From the NCBI RefSeq assembly GCF_003987395.1, contig NZ_PIPT01000003.1:124001-188000 (forward strand): 64,000 bases of DNA. Direction: 5' to 3'. The stretch's first letter is position 1; every line of letters begins with the position of its first letter. Shown here piece by piece: positions 56,753 to 60,561 of this stretch. Under the pieces are notes generated by a model. It did no database searches, was not told the DNA's origin, and was given only the letters and a program-made list of their open reading frames with translations. The position numbers and the translations under genes were made by a program. This stretch comes from Pseudidiomarina aquimaris. Lineage in GTDB: Bacteria; Pseudomonadota; Gammaproteobacteria; Enterobacterales; Alteromonadaceae.

Positions 56753-57952
56753 ATGGCACAGGATAAACAACATCAGTTGGAAATCGTGACCAAACCGAGC
56801 TTTTTAGACGGTTCAGCGTTACAGATTCCCATGCTTCAAATCCTCAAAGAAGACGGTACCGTGCACAAAGGTGCAAAGGTTCCTGAGATCGATAAAGATC
56901 TTGCTTTGAAAATGTTCGATACCATGCAGTTCATCCGTATTTTGGACGAGCGTATGATTGCCGCCCAACGTCAGGGGCGTATCAGCTTTTATCTGTCTTC
57001 ACTTGGTGAAGAGGCGGCCAGTATTGGCTCAGCTGCGGCACTGGATGATGGCGACATGATCATGGGCCAGTACCGTGAGCAAGGCGCATTGGCTTATCGC
57101 GGTTTCACTGTTGAACAGTTCATGGATCAATTGTTCTCGAACGAGCGTGATTTAGGTAAAGGTCGACAAATGCCAGTGCACTACGGCTGTGCGGCCCTGA
57201 ATTTCATGACGATTGCCTCGCCGTTAGCGACGCAAATTCCTCAGGCTACTGGTTATGCCTATGGCCAGAAGATGGATAAAACCGGTAACTGCACCATCTG
57301 TTACTTCGGTGAAGGTGCGGCTTCTGAAGGTGATTTCCACGCTGCATTGAACATGGCTGCGGTTTATAAAGTTCCGGTGATCTTCTTCTGCCGTAACAAC
57401 GGTTATGCCATTTCGACTCCGTCACAAGGTGAACAGTATGCTGGCGACGGCATCGCACCGCGCGGTGTGGCGTATGGCATGAAGACCATTCGTGTGGATG
57501 GTAATGACATTTTTGCCGTTTACCAAGCGACGCAGTTGGCACGTAAACTCGCCGTCGAAGAGAATGAACCGGTCTTGATAGAAGGTATGTCGTATCGTAT
57601 GGCGGGTCACTCAACTTCAGATGACCCGACCGGTTATCGTACCCGTGATGAAGAAGACGCTTGGCGTGCAAAAGACCCGTTAGCGCGCTTCCAGACCTAC
57701 TTGATCAAGAAGAAATGGTTAACCGAGAAAGACGCAGAAGAGAACTTCGCTGAAAAGAAAGCTGCTGTTCTTGCGGCACTCAAGAAGTCAGAAAAAGTTC
57801 CTGCGCCACACATTGATGAACTCATTAATGATGTGTACGACACCCCAACTCAACAGCTGAAAGAGCAGCTTGAAGAGTTAAAGGCGCATATTCGCAAGTA
57901 CCCAGAGGCGTACCCGAAAACTGCGTCACGTATTGATGGGGGAGATAAATAA
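56753..57952 (+). CDS. bkdA1: Branched-chain 2-oxoacid dehydrogenase E1 alpha subunit
   Basis: 399 residues of the thiamine-pyrophosphate E1 alpha fold. MVGQYREQGALAYRGF-like MGQYREQGALAYRGF (about 103-117) and the GEGAASEGDFHAALNMA TPP motif (near 185) are present; the GTSDDPTGYRT-like HSTSDDPTGYR phosphorylation-loop region (near 285) is characteristic of branched-chain E1 alpha. With E1 beta it decarboxylates the 2-oxoacids of Val, Ile and Leu and transfers the acyl group to E2. First gene of bkdA1-bkdA2-bkdB; an E3 gene is not in the window. Confidence 0.93.
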   Translation: MAQDKQHQLEIVTKPSFLDGSALQIPMLQILKEDGTVHKGAKVPEIDKDLALKMFDTMQFIRILDERMIAAQRQGRISFYLSSLGEEAASIGSAAALDDGDMIMGQYREQGALAYRGFTVEQFMDQLFSNERDLGKGRQMPVHYGCAALNFMTIASPLATQIPQATGYAYGQKMDKTGNCTICYFGEGAASEGDFHAALNMAAVYKVPVIFFCRNNGYAISTPSQGEQYAGDGIAPRGVAYGMKTIRVDGNDIFAVYQATQLARKLAVEENEPVLIEGMSYRMAGHSTSDDPTGYRTRDEEDAWRAKDPLARFQTYLIKKKWLTEKDAEENFAEKKAAVLAALKKSEKVPAPHIDELINDVYDTPTQQLKEQLEELKAHIRKYPEAYPKTASRIDGGDK

Positions 57953-58929
57953 TGGCGAACATGAACTTACTACAAGCCATCAATAGCGCACTTGATATCG
58001 CGATGGCGAAAAGCGACAAAGTGTATAGCTTCGGTGAAGATACCGGCGCTTTTGGCGGCGTGTTCCGCGCAACCTCGAAATTGACCGACAAATACGGTCG
58101 TCACCGTAACTTCAACACGCCGTTGGTCGAGCAGGGTATTCTTGGTTTTGCCAACGGTTTGGCCTCGCAGGGCAGCTATGCAGTCGCAGAGATTCAATTC
58201 GGCGACTACATCTTCCCAGCATTCGACCAAATCGTGAACGAGTCTGCGAAATTCCGCTATCGTTCTGGTAACGAATTTAACGTCGGTGGTTTAACGATTC
58301 GTACGCCATACGGCGGTGGTATTGCGGGCGGTCACTATCACTCACAGTCACCAGAAGCCTATTTTGCTCATACGCCTGGCTTGAAAATTGTCATGCCGCG
58401 TAATCCTTACATGGCAAAAGGCTTATTGTTGAGCGCTATTTTCGATCCAAACCCAGTGCTCTTTATGGAGCCGAAACGTTTGTATCGAGCCTCAACGGGC
58501 GAAGTTCCAGAAGAAGAGTACACGTTGGAGCTAGGCAAAGCAGACGTCGTGCGTGAAGGTAAAGACCTCACTATCGTCGCCTGGGGTGCGCAGGTTGAGA
58601 TGGCCGAGAAAGCGGCCGAGAAAGCTGCTGAAGACGGTATCGATTGCGAAGTGATTGACCTTGTCAGCCTGTTACCATGGGATATCGAAACCGTGGCGAA
58701 GTCAGTAATGAAAACTGGCCGCTTAGTGGTCACGCAAGAAGCACCTTTGACCAATGGTTTTGCCAGTGAAGTGGCGGCAACAATTCAAGACAAGTGTTTC
58801 TTATACCTTGAGTCGCCGATTGCTCGCGTGTGTGGCCTTGATGTGCCGTATCCGCTGTGCCACGAGAAAGAATACTTTGTCGACCACCTGAAAGTGTACG
58901 AAGCCGTCAAAGCTTCGATGACTTACTAA
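57952..58929 (+). CDS. bkdA2: Branched-chain 2-oxoacid dehydrogenase E1 beta subunit
   Basis: 325 residues of the transketolase-like E1 beta family, with VYSFGEDTGAFGGVFRAT, NTPLVEQGILGFANGLA, and AEIQFGDYIFPAFDQIVNE near the N-terminus. The start overlaps the E1 alpha stop by one base (TAATG), indicating translational coupling. It forms the alpha2beta2 E1 with the upstream product. Confidence 0.93.
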   Translation: MANMNLLQAINSALDIAMAKSDKVYSFGEDTGAFGGVFRATSKLTDKYGRHRNFNTPLVEQGILGFANGLASQGSYAVAEIQFGDYIFPAFDQIVNESAKFRYRSGNEFNVGGLTIRTPYGGGIAGGHYHSQSPEAYFAHTPGLKIVMPRNPYMAKGLLLSAIFDPNPVLFMEPKRLYRASTGEVPEEEYTLELGKADVVREGKDLTIVAWGAQVEMAEKAAEKAAEDGIDCEVIDLVSLLPWDIETVAKSVMKTGRLVVTQEAPLTNGFASEVAATIQDKCFLYLESPIARVCGLDVPYPLCHEKEYFVDHLKVYEAVKASMTY

Positions 58930-58941
58930 GAGGGCCGTAGT

Positions 58942-60561
58942 ATGAGTAAAGATTTTATCTTACCGGACATCGGCGAAGGCATCGTTGAATGCGAGATCGT
59001 TGAATGGTTAGTTGCTGAAGGCGATACCATCAAGGAAGACCAGCCTGTGGTCGACGTGATGACCGATAAAGCCTTGGTACAGATACCAGCCAAAGAAGAT
59101 GGCGTGGTCAGCAAGCTTTATTATGCCAAAGGCGATATCGCCAAAGTGCACGAGCCGCTCTTCGCCATCACCGGCACCGACGATGAGGGCAGCGACGACG
59201 TAGCCCGCAGTTCTACTGCGGGGGAACCTGAACCCAAAAACGATGCTGAACCTAGCAGCGTTGCCAGTTCAAACAGCTCCGTCACCGATTTCATCCTGCC
59301 AGATATTGGTGAAGGTATCGTTGAGTGCGAAATCGTCGAATGGCAAGTCAAAGAAGGCGACGTTATCGAGGAAGACCAGCCTGTCGTTGACGTAATGACC
59401 GACAAAGCGTTGGTGCAGATTCCCGCGAAAGAACACGGTGTGGTCGAGAAGCTCTATTACGCCAAAGGCGACATTGCCAAGGTTCACGAACCGCTATTCG
59501 CCATCCGTGTTGAAGGCGAAGAGGGCGAAGGCAACGTAGCCCGTAGTTCTGCTACGGGGTCAGCTAGTGCCACGAGCGATGCTCAATCATCTGCCGCCAG
59601 CTCATCTGCCGCAAACCCAGGCCAAGCCGATGCTCCACAAGCAGCACGCCAAGGCAAGGCGATTGCGAGTCCTGCAGTCCGTCGCCGTGCACGTGAACTT
59701 GATGTCGACATTAGCAAAGTTCCAGGTTCTGGCGCCAAAGGCCGCGTGATGAAAGAAGACGTCGAAAACTTCGTAGCCCGTGGTTCTACCACGGGAGAAG
59801 CTACAACATCGCAATCGACGTCCGACTCAGCAGCCAAGCCGGTAGCAACCAGCGGCGGCACTCGCACCGAAGCCATCCGTGGCGTGAAAGCCGCTATGGC
59901 CAAAGCCATGACCGAGTCCGTCAGCACCATCCCGCATTTCACCTATGCGGACGAGTTCGACATGACCAATGTCATGGCGTTACAGAAGCAGTTGAAAGAA
60001 CGTTACAAGGACGAAGGTATCCGCATCACCATGATGCCATTCTTCATCAAAGCCTTGTCGTTGGCGCTGAAAGAATTCCCAATCATGAATGCGCAGGTTA
60101 ACGCTGATTGTACCGAGATCACCTATTTTGATGATCACAACATCGGTATGGCAGTCGACACCAAGATTGGTTTGTTGGTACCGAACGTCAAACAGGTACA
60201 GAACAAGAGCATCATCGATATTGCCAATGAAGTAACACGCCTAACCCAAGCTGCTCGCGAAGGGCGCGTGGCACAGGAAGATATGAAAGGTGGCACTATT
60301 TCCATCTCCAATATCGGCGTTATTGGCGGTACCGTGGCAACGCCTATCATCAATAAGCCAGAAGCGGCGATTGTTGCGCTAGGTAAAGTACAAGAACTGC
60401 CTCGTTTTGATGCGCAAGGCAATGTTGTTGCACGCAAGATCATGAATGTCAGTTGGTCTGGCGACCATCGCATCATTGACGGCGGCACCATTGCGCGCTT
60501 TAACAAGCGTTGGCAGGAGTACCTCGAGGATCCAACCTCGATGCTGGTGCACATGGTTTAA
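58942..60561 (+). CDS. bkdB: E2 lipoyl acyltransferase with two lipoyl domains and REP-like linkers
   Basis: 539 residues. Lipoyl domain 1 (5-76) and 2 (117-188) carry the modified lysine in DVMTDKALVQ (Lys-43 and Lys-155). A peripheral-subunit-binding domain lies at about 238-277 (KAIASPAVRRRARELDVDIS). The acyltransferase domain (about 310-539) ends with the catalytic SGDHRIIDGG. It moves the branched-chain acyl group from E1 to CoA. The two lipoyl domains differ at only six of about 72 residues, although their codons differ widely. The linkers after each lipoyl domain and after the binding domain contain VAR-S/G-S-x-x-G, each encoded by a GTAG-headed hairpin (see the repeat features). The gene starts 12 bases after E1 beta. 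Confidence 0.94.
   Translation: MSKDFILPDIGEGIVECEIVEWLVAEGDTIKEDQPVVDVMTDKALVQIPAKEDGVVSKLYYAKGDIAKVHEPLFAITGTDDEGSDDVARSSTAGEPEPKNDAEPSSVASSNSSVTDFILPDIGEGIVECEIVEWQVKEGDVIEEDQPVVDVMTDKALVQIPAKEHGVVEKLYYAKGDIAKVHEPLFAIRVEGEEGEGNVARSSATGSASATSDAQSSAASSSAANPGQADAPQAARQGKAIASPAVRRRARELDVDISKVPGSGAKGRVMKEDVENFVARGSTTGEATTSQSTSDSAAKPVATSGGTRTEAIRGVKAAMAKAMTESVSTIPHFTYADEFDMTNVMALQKQLKERYKDEGIRITMMPFFIKALSLALKEFPIMNAQVNADCTEITYFDDHNIGMAVDTKIGLLVPNVKQVQNKSIIDIANEVTRLTQAAREGRVAQEDMKGGTISISNIGVIGGTVATPIINKPEAAIVALGKVQELPRFDAQGNVVARKIMNVSWSGDHRIIDGGTIARFNKRWQEYLEDPTSMLVHMV
59200..59222 (+). repeat. REP-like GTAG-headed hairpin, copy A (in bkdB linker 1)
   Basis: Head GTAG at 59200-59203, arms CCCGCAG (59204-59210) and CTGCGGG (59216-59222), loop TTCTA. 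Encodes VARSSTAG after lipoyl domain 1 (residues 87-94). Confidence 0.8.
59536..59558 (+). repeat. REP-like GTAG-headed hairpin, copy B (in bkdB linker 2)
   Basis: Head GTAG at 59536-59539, arms CCCGTAG (59540-59546) and CTACGGG (59552-59558), loop TTCTG. Encodes VARSSATG after lipoyl domain 2 (residues 199-206). Confidence 0.8.
59773..59795 (+). repeat. REP-like GTAG-headed hairpin, copy C (in bkdB linker 3)
   Basis: Head GTAG at 59773-59776, arms CCCGTGG (59777-59783) and CCACGGG (59789-59795), loop TTCTA. Encodes VARGSTTG just after the subunit-binding domain (residues 278-285). Confidence 0.8.

Follow-up and report, generated by a model that had tools for sequence, protein, structure and literature searches.

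Within the GTAG-tagged REP superfamily, intragenic REPs that encode amino acids are already known, and flexible linkers or loops have been proposed as neutral insertion places for them, as laid out in the main text of Di Nocera et al. (2013, PMC3733652). The REPs of that text and the REPs of Pseudidiomarina have in common the GTAG head, the short palindrome, the occurrence of dimers, the association with a transposase gene, and some copies located within ORFs. According to the same text, the decorated genes mainly serve DNA synthesis and repair or encode RNA-binding/modifying proteins, whereas in Pseudidiomarina they include the linkers of three 2-oxoacid dehydrogenase E2 proteins, in addition to Der, HscA, and RodZ; as words, Idiomarina and Pseudoalteromonas are absent from the main text. 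The 23-nt layout is found again in the Group 3 REPtron Sm of Stenotrophomonas maltophilia, for which PMC8266576 gives GTAG, an 8-bp perfect stem, and a 3-nt loop. The loop reads G13C14T15 in S. maltophilia, where cutting by TnpAREP was shown in vitro, and tct in Pseudidiomarina. A further parallel is provided by REPIN doublets, for which Bertels and Rainey (2011, PMC3116915) and PMC8049555 describe inverted REP pairs with a spacer as the common unit, as in Pseudidiomarina (often 65 bp from start to start), and persistence by vertical inheritance, which would also apply here. However, the REPs of the passages concerned were selected as extragenic, whereas Pseudidiomarina has a complete in-frame doublet in HscA of three genomes (G012, G031, and G034). 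Finally, the Rickettsia palindromic elements (RPE), in the passages of PMC3733652 and PMC10969869 that cite them, are in-frame palindromic repeats in many unrelated coding genes, and the REPs of Pseudidiomarina are likewise in-frame palindromic insertions in coding genes. In these passages, RPE are given as ~150 bp as first reported and no link to GTAG or RAYT is stated, whereas the Pseudidiomarina element has 23 bp plus a tail; the elements were not classed as RPE. New, as far as literature searches show, are the host genus, the load on E2 linkers, and the persistence at the DNA level inside codons, measured at fourfold sites; among the papers listed by these searches, none dealt with E2-linker REPs or with REPs inside Pseudidiomarina genes.

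The window, i.e., the whole 64-kb stretch of DNA that was analyzed, contains a gene for an E2 lipoyl acyltransferase, which we take to be probably the E2 of a branched-chain 2-oxoacid dehydrogenase (bkdB label); all NCBIfam models that match the protein remained below their cut-offs. Three 23-bp units (copies A, B, and C) are located at offsets 258, 594, and 831 of this ORF, all on the plus strand and in phase 0, which confirmed the coordinates and the common codon phase given by a first-pass annotation of the window (Table 1). The pattern GTAGCCCGNNGTTCTNCNNCGGG, allowing ≤ 3 mismatches, had three matches in the window, all of them E2 copies, and 100 shuffles of the window gave a mean of 0.04 matches (maximum 1). 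In each of the units, the tetranucleotide GTAG stands directly 5′ of a short palindrome. The latter had been described as a perfect 7-bp stem with a five-base loop, but is better described by an 8-bp stem and a 3-base loop (tct), with perfect stems in copies A and C, and seven Watson–Crick pairs plus one T-G pair in copy B. The domain order in the protein is lipoyl domain 1, REP A, lipoyl domain 2, REP B, E3-binding domain, REP C, and catalytic domain. As the annotation had it, each hairpin follows a folded domain; all three are positioned in linkers outside the Pfam domains, and each copy reads as the peptide VAR-S/G-S-x-x-G. None of the three belongs to an inverted doublet; each is a single copy.

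Table 1. Features of the E2 locus, with positions counted from the first nucleotide of the window.
Feature	Position	Strand	Description
E1 alpha subunit gene	56753..57952	+	directly upstream; best model below its cut-off
E1 beta subunit gene	57952..58929	+	directly upstream of E2; best model below its cut-off
E2 lipoyl acyltransferase gene	58942..60561	+	539 aa; domains: two lipoyl, one E3-binding, one catalytic
Lipoyl domain 1	58951..59169	+	Pfam, aa 4-76
REP copy A	59200..59222	+	CA-type stem; VARSSTAG; linker 1 of E2, aa 87-94
Putative 3′ tail of REP A	59223..59245	+	extent inferred from flank profile of REP copies
Lipoyl domain 2	59287..59505	+	DNA repeat, 79% identical to domain 1; Pfam counts two lipoyl stretches
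REP copy B	59536..59558	+	TA-type stem, T-G closing pair; VARSSATG; linker 2, aa 199-206
E3-binding (peripheral subunit-binding) domain	59662..59766	+	Pfam, aa 241-275
REP copy C	59773..59795	+	TG-type stem; VARGSTTG; directly after E3-binding domain, aa 278-285
Acyltransferase catalytic domain	59860..60546	+	Pfam, aa 307-535

The genome to which the window belongs (G000; assembly of 2.8 Mb in 22 contigs, 99.99% complete) was searched for further copies, as the first-pass annotation had advised. This revealed 49 exact copies, mostly outside long ORFs, with 24 on the plus and 25 on the minus strand and only TA, CA, and TG stems, while the reversed pattern, used as control, gave 0. A looser pattern applied to the G000 stretches examined gave 55 copies (21 TG, 20 TA, 13 CA, and 1 CAC), 38 outside any ORF of at least 150 aa and 17 inside. 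Nine of these 17 are found within six conserved proteins and away from their ends, which applies to E2 (three copies), YjbH (two copies), AceF, Der, HscA, and RodZ. Across 59 genomes searched, the pattern was present in 16, i.e., in 16 of the 26 genomes of the genus (G000 included) and in none of the 33 outside it, and in a wider sequence collection all among the matches listed were from Pseudidiomarina. On the 5′ side, the flank profile of the REPs breaks off sharply at GTAG; on the 3′ side, a tail of weak conservation extends to about +23 and includes ATG at +21 to +23. For the 258 looser-pattern copies of G000, G018, and G008, the nearest REP on the 3′ side lay in opposite orientation within ≤ 200 bp in 148 cases, often 65 bp from start to start; the remaining copies were tandem (41) or single (69). 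This arrangement is the layout of inverted REP doublets. On the 3′ side of the hairpin, CT dinucleotides were enriched (start at +5 to +8 in 108 and at +30 to +33 in 47 of the 258 copies), and on its 5′ side they were not (55 copies within −8 to −1 and 96 within −30 to −23), a placement that would only partly fit published CT cleavage.

Two further observations concern the distribution of short repeats. REPs are strongly clustered in G018:C1:1155689-1418593, where 76 of the first 100 copies listed (124 in total) fall into ~263 kb, on a contig of 1.95 Mb; the clustering may have to do with the replication terminus. Copies of a different short repeat, TTGTTTGCTATTTGCTGTTTGTTGTTTG-like, occur at L069:9855-9909 and in contigs C1, C2, C3, C12, C16, C17, C18, C21, and C22 of G000, with some copies within ~150 bp of a REP.

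A gene of the REP_Tyr_transpos family is located amid the same REPs in G003, G007, G008, and G018. The family assignment was made on the 183-aa protein of G018, which reached 151.3 bits with the NCBIfam model REP_Tyr_transpos (cut-off 80) and also matches Pfam Y1_Tnp and the solved TnpArep 4er8 (E 1.7e-31). In G011, G012, and G031, a RAYT gene lies amid GC-stem REPs, and in total full-length RAYT relatives (52–100% identity) were identified in eight of the 26 genomes of the genus. Furthermore, G002 has a 113-residue RAYT piece with a stop, and weak matches in G002 and G013 (26–28%) look like another kind. Two genomes speak against a RAYT-spread origin of the elements: G032 has a RAYT (52% identity) and no match to the looser REP pattern, and G007 has a RAYT and 35 REPs, none of them in the five genes E2, aceF, sucB, der, and hscA. 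The search for a RAYT, also advised by the first-pass annotation, was positive in these relatives and negative in the genome itself, as Pfam and protein searches of the 22-contig draft of G000 found no RAYT of the cognate kind. At the place syntenic to the G018 RAYT, an assembly gap was rejected as the reason, because the contig is unbroken there and has a 209-aa ORF instead; a gap elsewhere in the draft may still conceal a RAYT. With no cognate RAYT found and another ORF at its syntenic place, the REPs of G000 appear to be orphans, and from the tree we infer that their RAYT was lost. A distant Y1_Tnp gene at G000:C21:15141-15473 (L038) fell short of the REP_Tyr_transpos cut-off (74.4 vs. 80 bits) and was rejected as the cognate RAYT, and a hairpin scan of its 3.3-kb locus gave no GTAG/GGAG hairpins; other Y1_Tnp genes are present in many relatives. 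A decay of REPs where the RAYT is absent was not supported, since G003 has eroded copies with a RAYT, whereas G000 has intact ones without.

In all probability, the three hairpins represent GTAG-type REPs from a population spread by a RAYT in the Pseudidiomarina lineage and captured in frame. REP-type elements in frame in linkers had already been proposed from the window, and the proposal is supported by the genome-wide family, the RAYT in sister species, and the REP-free E2 genes described below. In the course of events that we propose, a RAYT would have spread the REPs through this lineage, and copies may have landed in flexible, length-variable linkers. There, the sole fully open sense phase would encode the small polar peptide VAR(S/G)S(T/A)(T/A)G, so that an insertion would do little harm and survive, while copies in folded domains or closed frames would be lost.

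The E2 gene was found in 24 of the 26 genomes of the genus, and its comparison among relatives, another check proposed with the first-pass annotation, revealed REPs in the linkers of five genes and none in the other 19. All three linkers contain REPs in G000, G008, and G018, linkers 1 and 2 in G013 (TAC stem), and linkers 1 and 3 in G003, where the copy in linker 3 is eroded. The E2 gene of G002, with 98% identity in the catalytic part, is among those without REPs. The 23-mer of copy A is identical in G008, G018, and G003, and that of copy C in G008 and G018, while the orthologue of copy B differs by one base in G008 and by two in G018, where the head reads ATAG. The E2 REPs are probably old insertions, because G000, G008, and G018 share one stem type per linker; a clean empty site was not found, as linker length varies too much to read the inserted length. 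The first-pass annotation had named as contrary to its reading a lack of more copies in the genome, one and the same linker everywhere, and codons that disrupt the stem; this outcome was not observed. An origin by duplication within the gene would imply that one VAR linker arose and was then copied together with the lipoyl domain or by linker recombination. Tandem copying indeed seems real, as AceF of G008 has five hairpins, E2 of G013 has DVAR three times, and the RodZ site has two copies in G008 and G018. However, two lipoyl domains are present in all 24 E2 genes aligned and REPs in five only, so that duplication of the lipoyl domain was rejected as the source of copies A and B. In addition, copies A, B, and C differ in stems and tails, each keeps its stem type in G000, G008, and G018, and the same element occurring 49 times in G000 argues against an origin within the gene. 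As a source of the three hairpins, we regard duplication as very improbable, and it remains as a secondary process. An example is seen in linker 2 of the G013 E2 (L047), where DVAR stands three times in a row and the last one opens the REP, which corresponds to a small tandem expansion of the 5′ part of the REP.

Capture in frame is not restricted to this E2. Orthologues were gathered for der (25 of 26 genomes), aceF (26 of 26), sucB (25 of 26), and hscA (24 of 26). A tolerant sense-strand scan of five genes gave 59 matches, comprising 54 phase-0 REPs, some of them eroded, and five matches without an intact element that were dropped as chance, one of which was in phase 0 in a folded domain. 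The antisense scan of four genes (hscA left out) gave 16 matches, all with 3 or 4 mismatches at fixed positions; six were reverse complements of sense hairpins, and ten were chance-like. Besides E2, in-frame REPs were identified in AceF, Der, HscA, and RodZ of G000, and in SucB of relatives (none in G000, two each in G018 and G008, and one eroded copy in G003). RodZ of G000 carries a single REP, and the corresponding ORF of G008 and G018 carries a tandem pair at a distance of 66 bp. In aceF of G008 (L178), five in-frame hairpins are located at offsets 258, 315, 375, 663, and 708, of which four combine a GTAC or GAAC head with a perfect stem; this array looks like a local duplication of a head-mutated REP. 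HscA of G012, G031, and G034 has a second, inverted REP behind the first, and the complete doublet is read in frame. RibF and TcdA have C-terminal REPs in sense orientation and in frame, and YjbH has a REP doublet with one sense and one antisense copy.

Of the six genomes with GC-stem REPs at these coding sites, five group together as a single clade in the tree, from which the sixth (G035) is absent. Counted from the conserved LTD/YP motifs, the insertion points of the genomes with TA, CA, or TG stems and of most GC-stem genomes are 9 bp apart in HscA and 3 bp apart in Der, and the nearest relatives of G031 are without the Der REP. The differing insertion points and the missing Der REP near G031 suggest that the HscA and Der sites may have been hit more than once. 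In a comparison with solved Hsp70s, the match is weak over the section of the nucleotide-binding part that contains the HscA REP peptide, and the solved Hsp70 shown has a stretch of about equal length at this place; judged by this one alignment, the REP would form a loop inside the domain rather than an interdomain linker. The Der linker of G006 (L158) reads VANSATAEA where relatives have the REP peptide VARSSTAGD, and may go back to an old REP that is no longer recognizable in the DNA.

Among the six reading frames of the element, +1 and −1 are always stopped, +2 is stopped if the stem is of TA or TAC type, and +0, −0, and −2 are open. The common phase of the E2 copies is partly forced, since some frames always hit stops. 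If chance decided among the open frames, +0 would account for one third to one quarter of the insertions. The single copies in E2, Der, HscA, and RodZ are all in sense orientation, in the phase that gives VAR(S/G/T/R)S, and the excess of +0 in these proteins is best read as survival of a small polar peptide, not as target choice. The uniform phase would also agree with adaptation at the peptide level, i.e., selection of a VARSSTTG-like linker peptide with the DNA identity being incidental. We consider this highly improbable, as synonymous positions inside the REPs are nearly invariant, most orthologues are without the peptide, and the same DNA occurs outside genes. In mechanical ORFs of at least 150 aa in G000, G018, and G008, many of which may be non-genic, orientation is more mixed: 61 of the 258 copies were found there, 37 in sense and 24 in antisense. 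All 37 sense copies are in phase 0 (27 internal, six in the first 35 codons, and four near the end), and the antisense copies comprise seven internal ones, including one in YjbH, and 17 that fall within the first 35 codons, for which the ORF start may have been misplaced.

The 26 genomes of one genus form a comparative series in which the same linkers occur with and without REPs and with differing stem types at the same codons, so that a mobile palindrome can be traced inside conserved genes. Because the synonymous sites of the host genes give a yardstick, the upkeep of the palindrome as DNA becomes measurable, which is hard for extragenic REPs. All six G000 sites considered (E2 linkers 1–3, aceF linker 1, der, and hscA) are present in G018. 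Between G000 and G018, 1 of 35 fourfold sites differed in the REPs and 465 of 1069 in the host genes; between G000 and G008, at the five sites where each genome has just one copy, it was 2 of 28 and 362 of 792, with the p-values of both comparisons treating sites as independent. Comparisons with more distant species are biased, as eroded copies can escape the scan, which favours well-kept ones; the comparison of G000 with G018 is least affected, because none of the six sites is missing in G018. In 122 site-by-pair comparisons, whose counts repeat shared history, 139 differing stem columns were changed on both arms and 41 on one arm. The der stem is of CA type in G000, G002, and G003 and of TA type in G008 and G018, and the hscA stem is of CA type in G000 and G018 and of TA type in G008 and G002. 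The claim that base pairing is conserved while the sequence drifts could be upheld for the paired changes, as differences often affect both arms, but not for the drift, as TA, CA, and TG are standing REP variants.

Non-coding REPs served for comparison, with the best of several candidates taken per place, which favours identity. For 23 of 46 non-coding G000 REPs, matching flanks were found in G018, revealing nine identical copies, four with paired changes only, nine with unpaired, loop, or head changes, and one absence; for seven of nine REPs of the coding set, these were four identical, two paired-only, and one other. In G008, 16 of the 46 non-coding REPs had matching flanks (six identical, three paired-only, six other, and one absent), as did seven of the nine of the coding set (three identical, three paired-only, and one other). 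Unpaired changes were somewhat fewer in coding copies, with numbers too small to call them different from non-coding ones. Given the similar behaviour of non-coding REPs at corresponding places, the coding copies seem to be ordinary REPs of this population.

This bears on the question of whether the hairpins are kept for a structural job of mRNA or DNA in E2, e.g., by delaying ribosomes between two domains or by shielding the transcript. Such a role would agree with the nearly frozen internal fourfold sites in a diverging host gene, with the position of the hairpins next to domain boundaries, and with the stable folds of the isolated 23-nt RNAs (−13.1, −11.4, and −13.1 kcal/mol for A, B, and C). 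In an 83-nt context, however, the folds are unexceptional (z −1.66, −0.24, and −2.15, respectively), with copy A partly refolded. Moreover, 19 of 24 E2 genes lack the hairpins, stem changes at single-copy sites go mostly to other stem types of the family, and non-coding REPs in corresponding positions show comparable persistence and switching. We consider a structural role in E2 very unlikely. In line with capture of REPs from a RAYT-spread population, the copies would be inherited vertically after insertion, as for non-coding REPs, and the palindrome would be kept as DNA, with an occasional switch between family stem types that involves both arms together. The likeliest cause of this upkeep and switching may be that REP alleles or copies convert one another, or that a RAYT continues to recognize them, rather than a need of the protein; in G000, the cognate RAYT would since have been lost, leaving the REPs there as orphans. 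More tentatively, the in-frame REPs of E2, AceF, Der, HscA, and RodZ might be kept and rewritten by copying linked to REP and RAYT, so that their codons would change with the REP population, on both stem arms at once and mostly to family stem types, and not by codon-by-codon drift; we consider this idea rather less likely than not. If true, protein linkers would still be governed as mobile DNA. The genus offers natural material for studying whether REPs at fixed places are substrates of RAYTs or are copied into one another by them.

Regarding local divergence, hscA of G008 and G018 (L229/L230) has 41 differences within positions 731-932 (202 bp) around the REP at 870-892, and eight elsewhere in 1,893 bp. 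This patch looks like a short imported or converted tract and is a single case; because the stem switch lies within it, import of a foreign allele explains the switch in G008 hscA as well as REP-to-REP copying does. A general drop of identity near coding REPs between G018 and G008 was not supported, with 15% of 62 ORF windows below 0.9 at ≤ 150 bp and 14% of 1361 at > 500 bp. Intergenic REPs had more low-identity windows nearby in the same pair of genomes (32% of 98 vs. 9% of 191).
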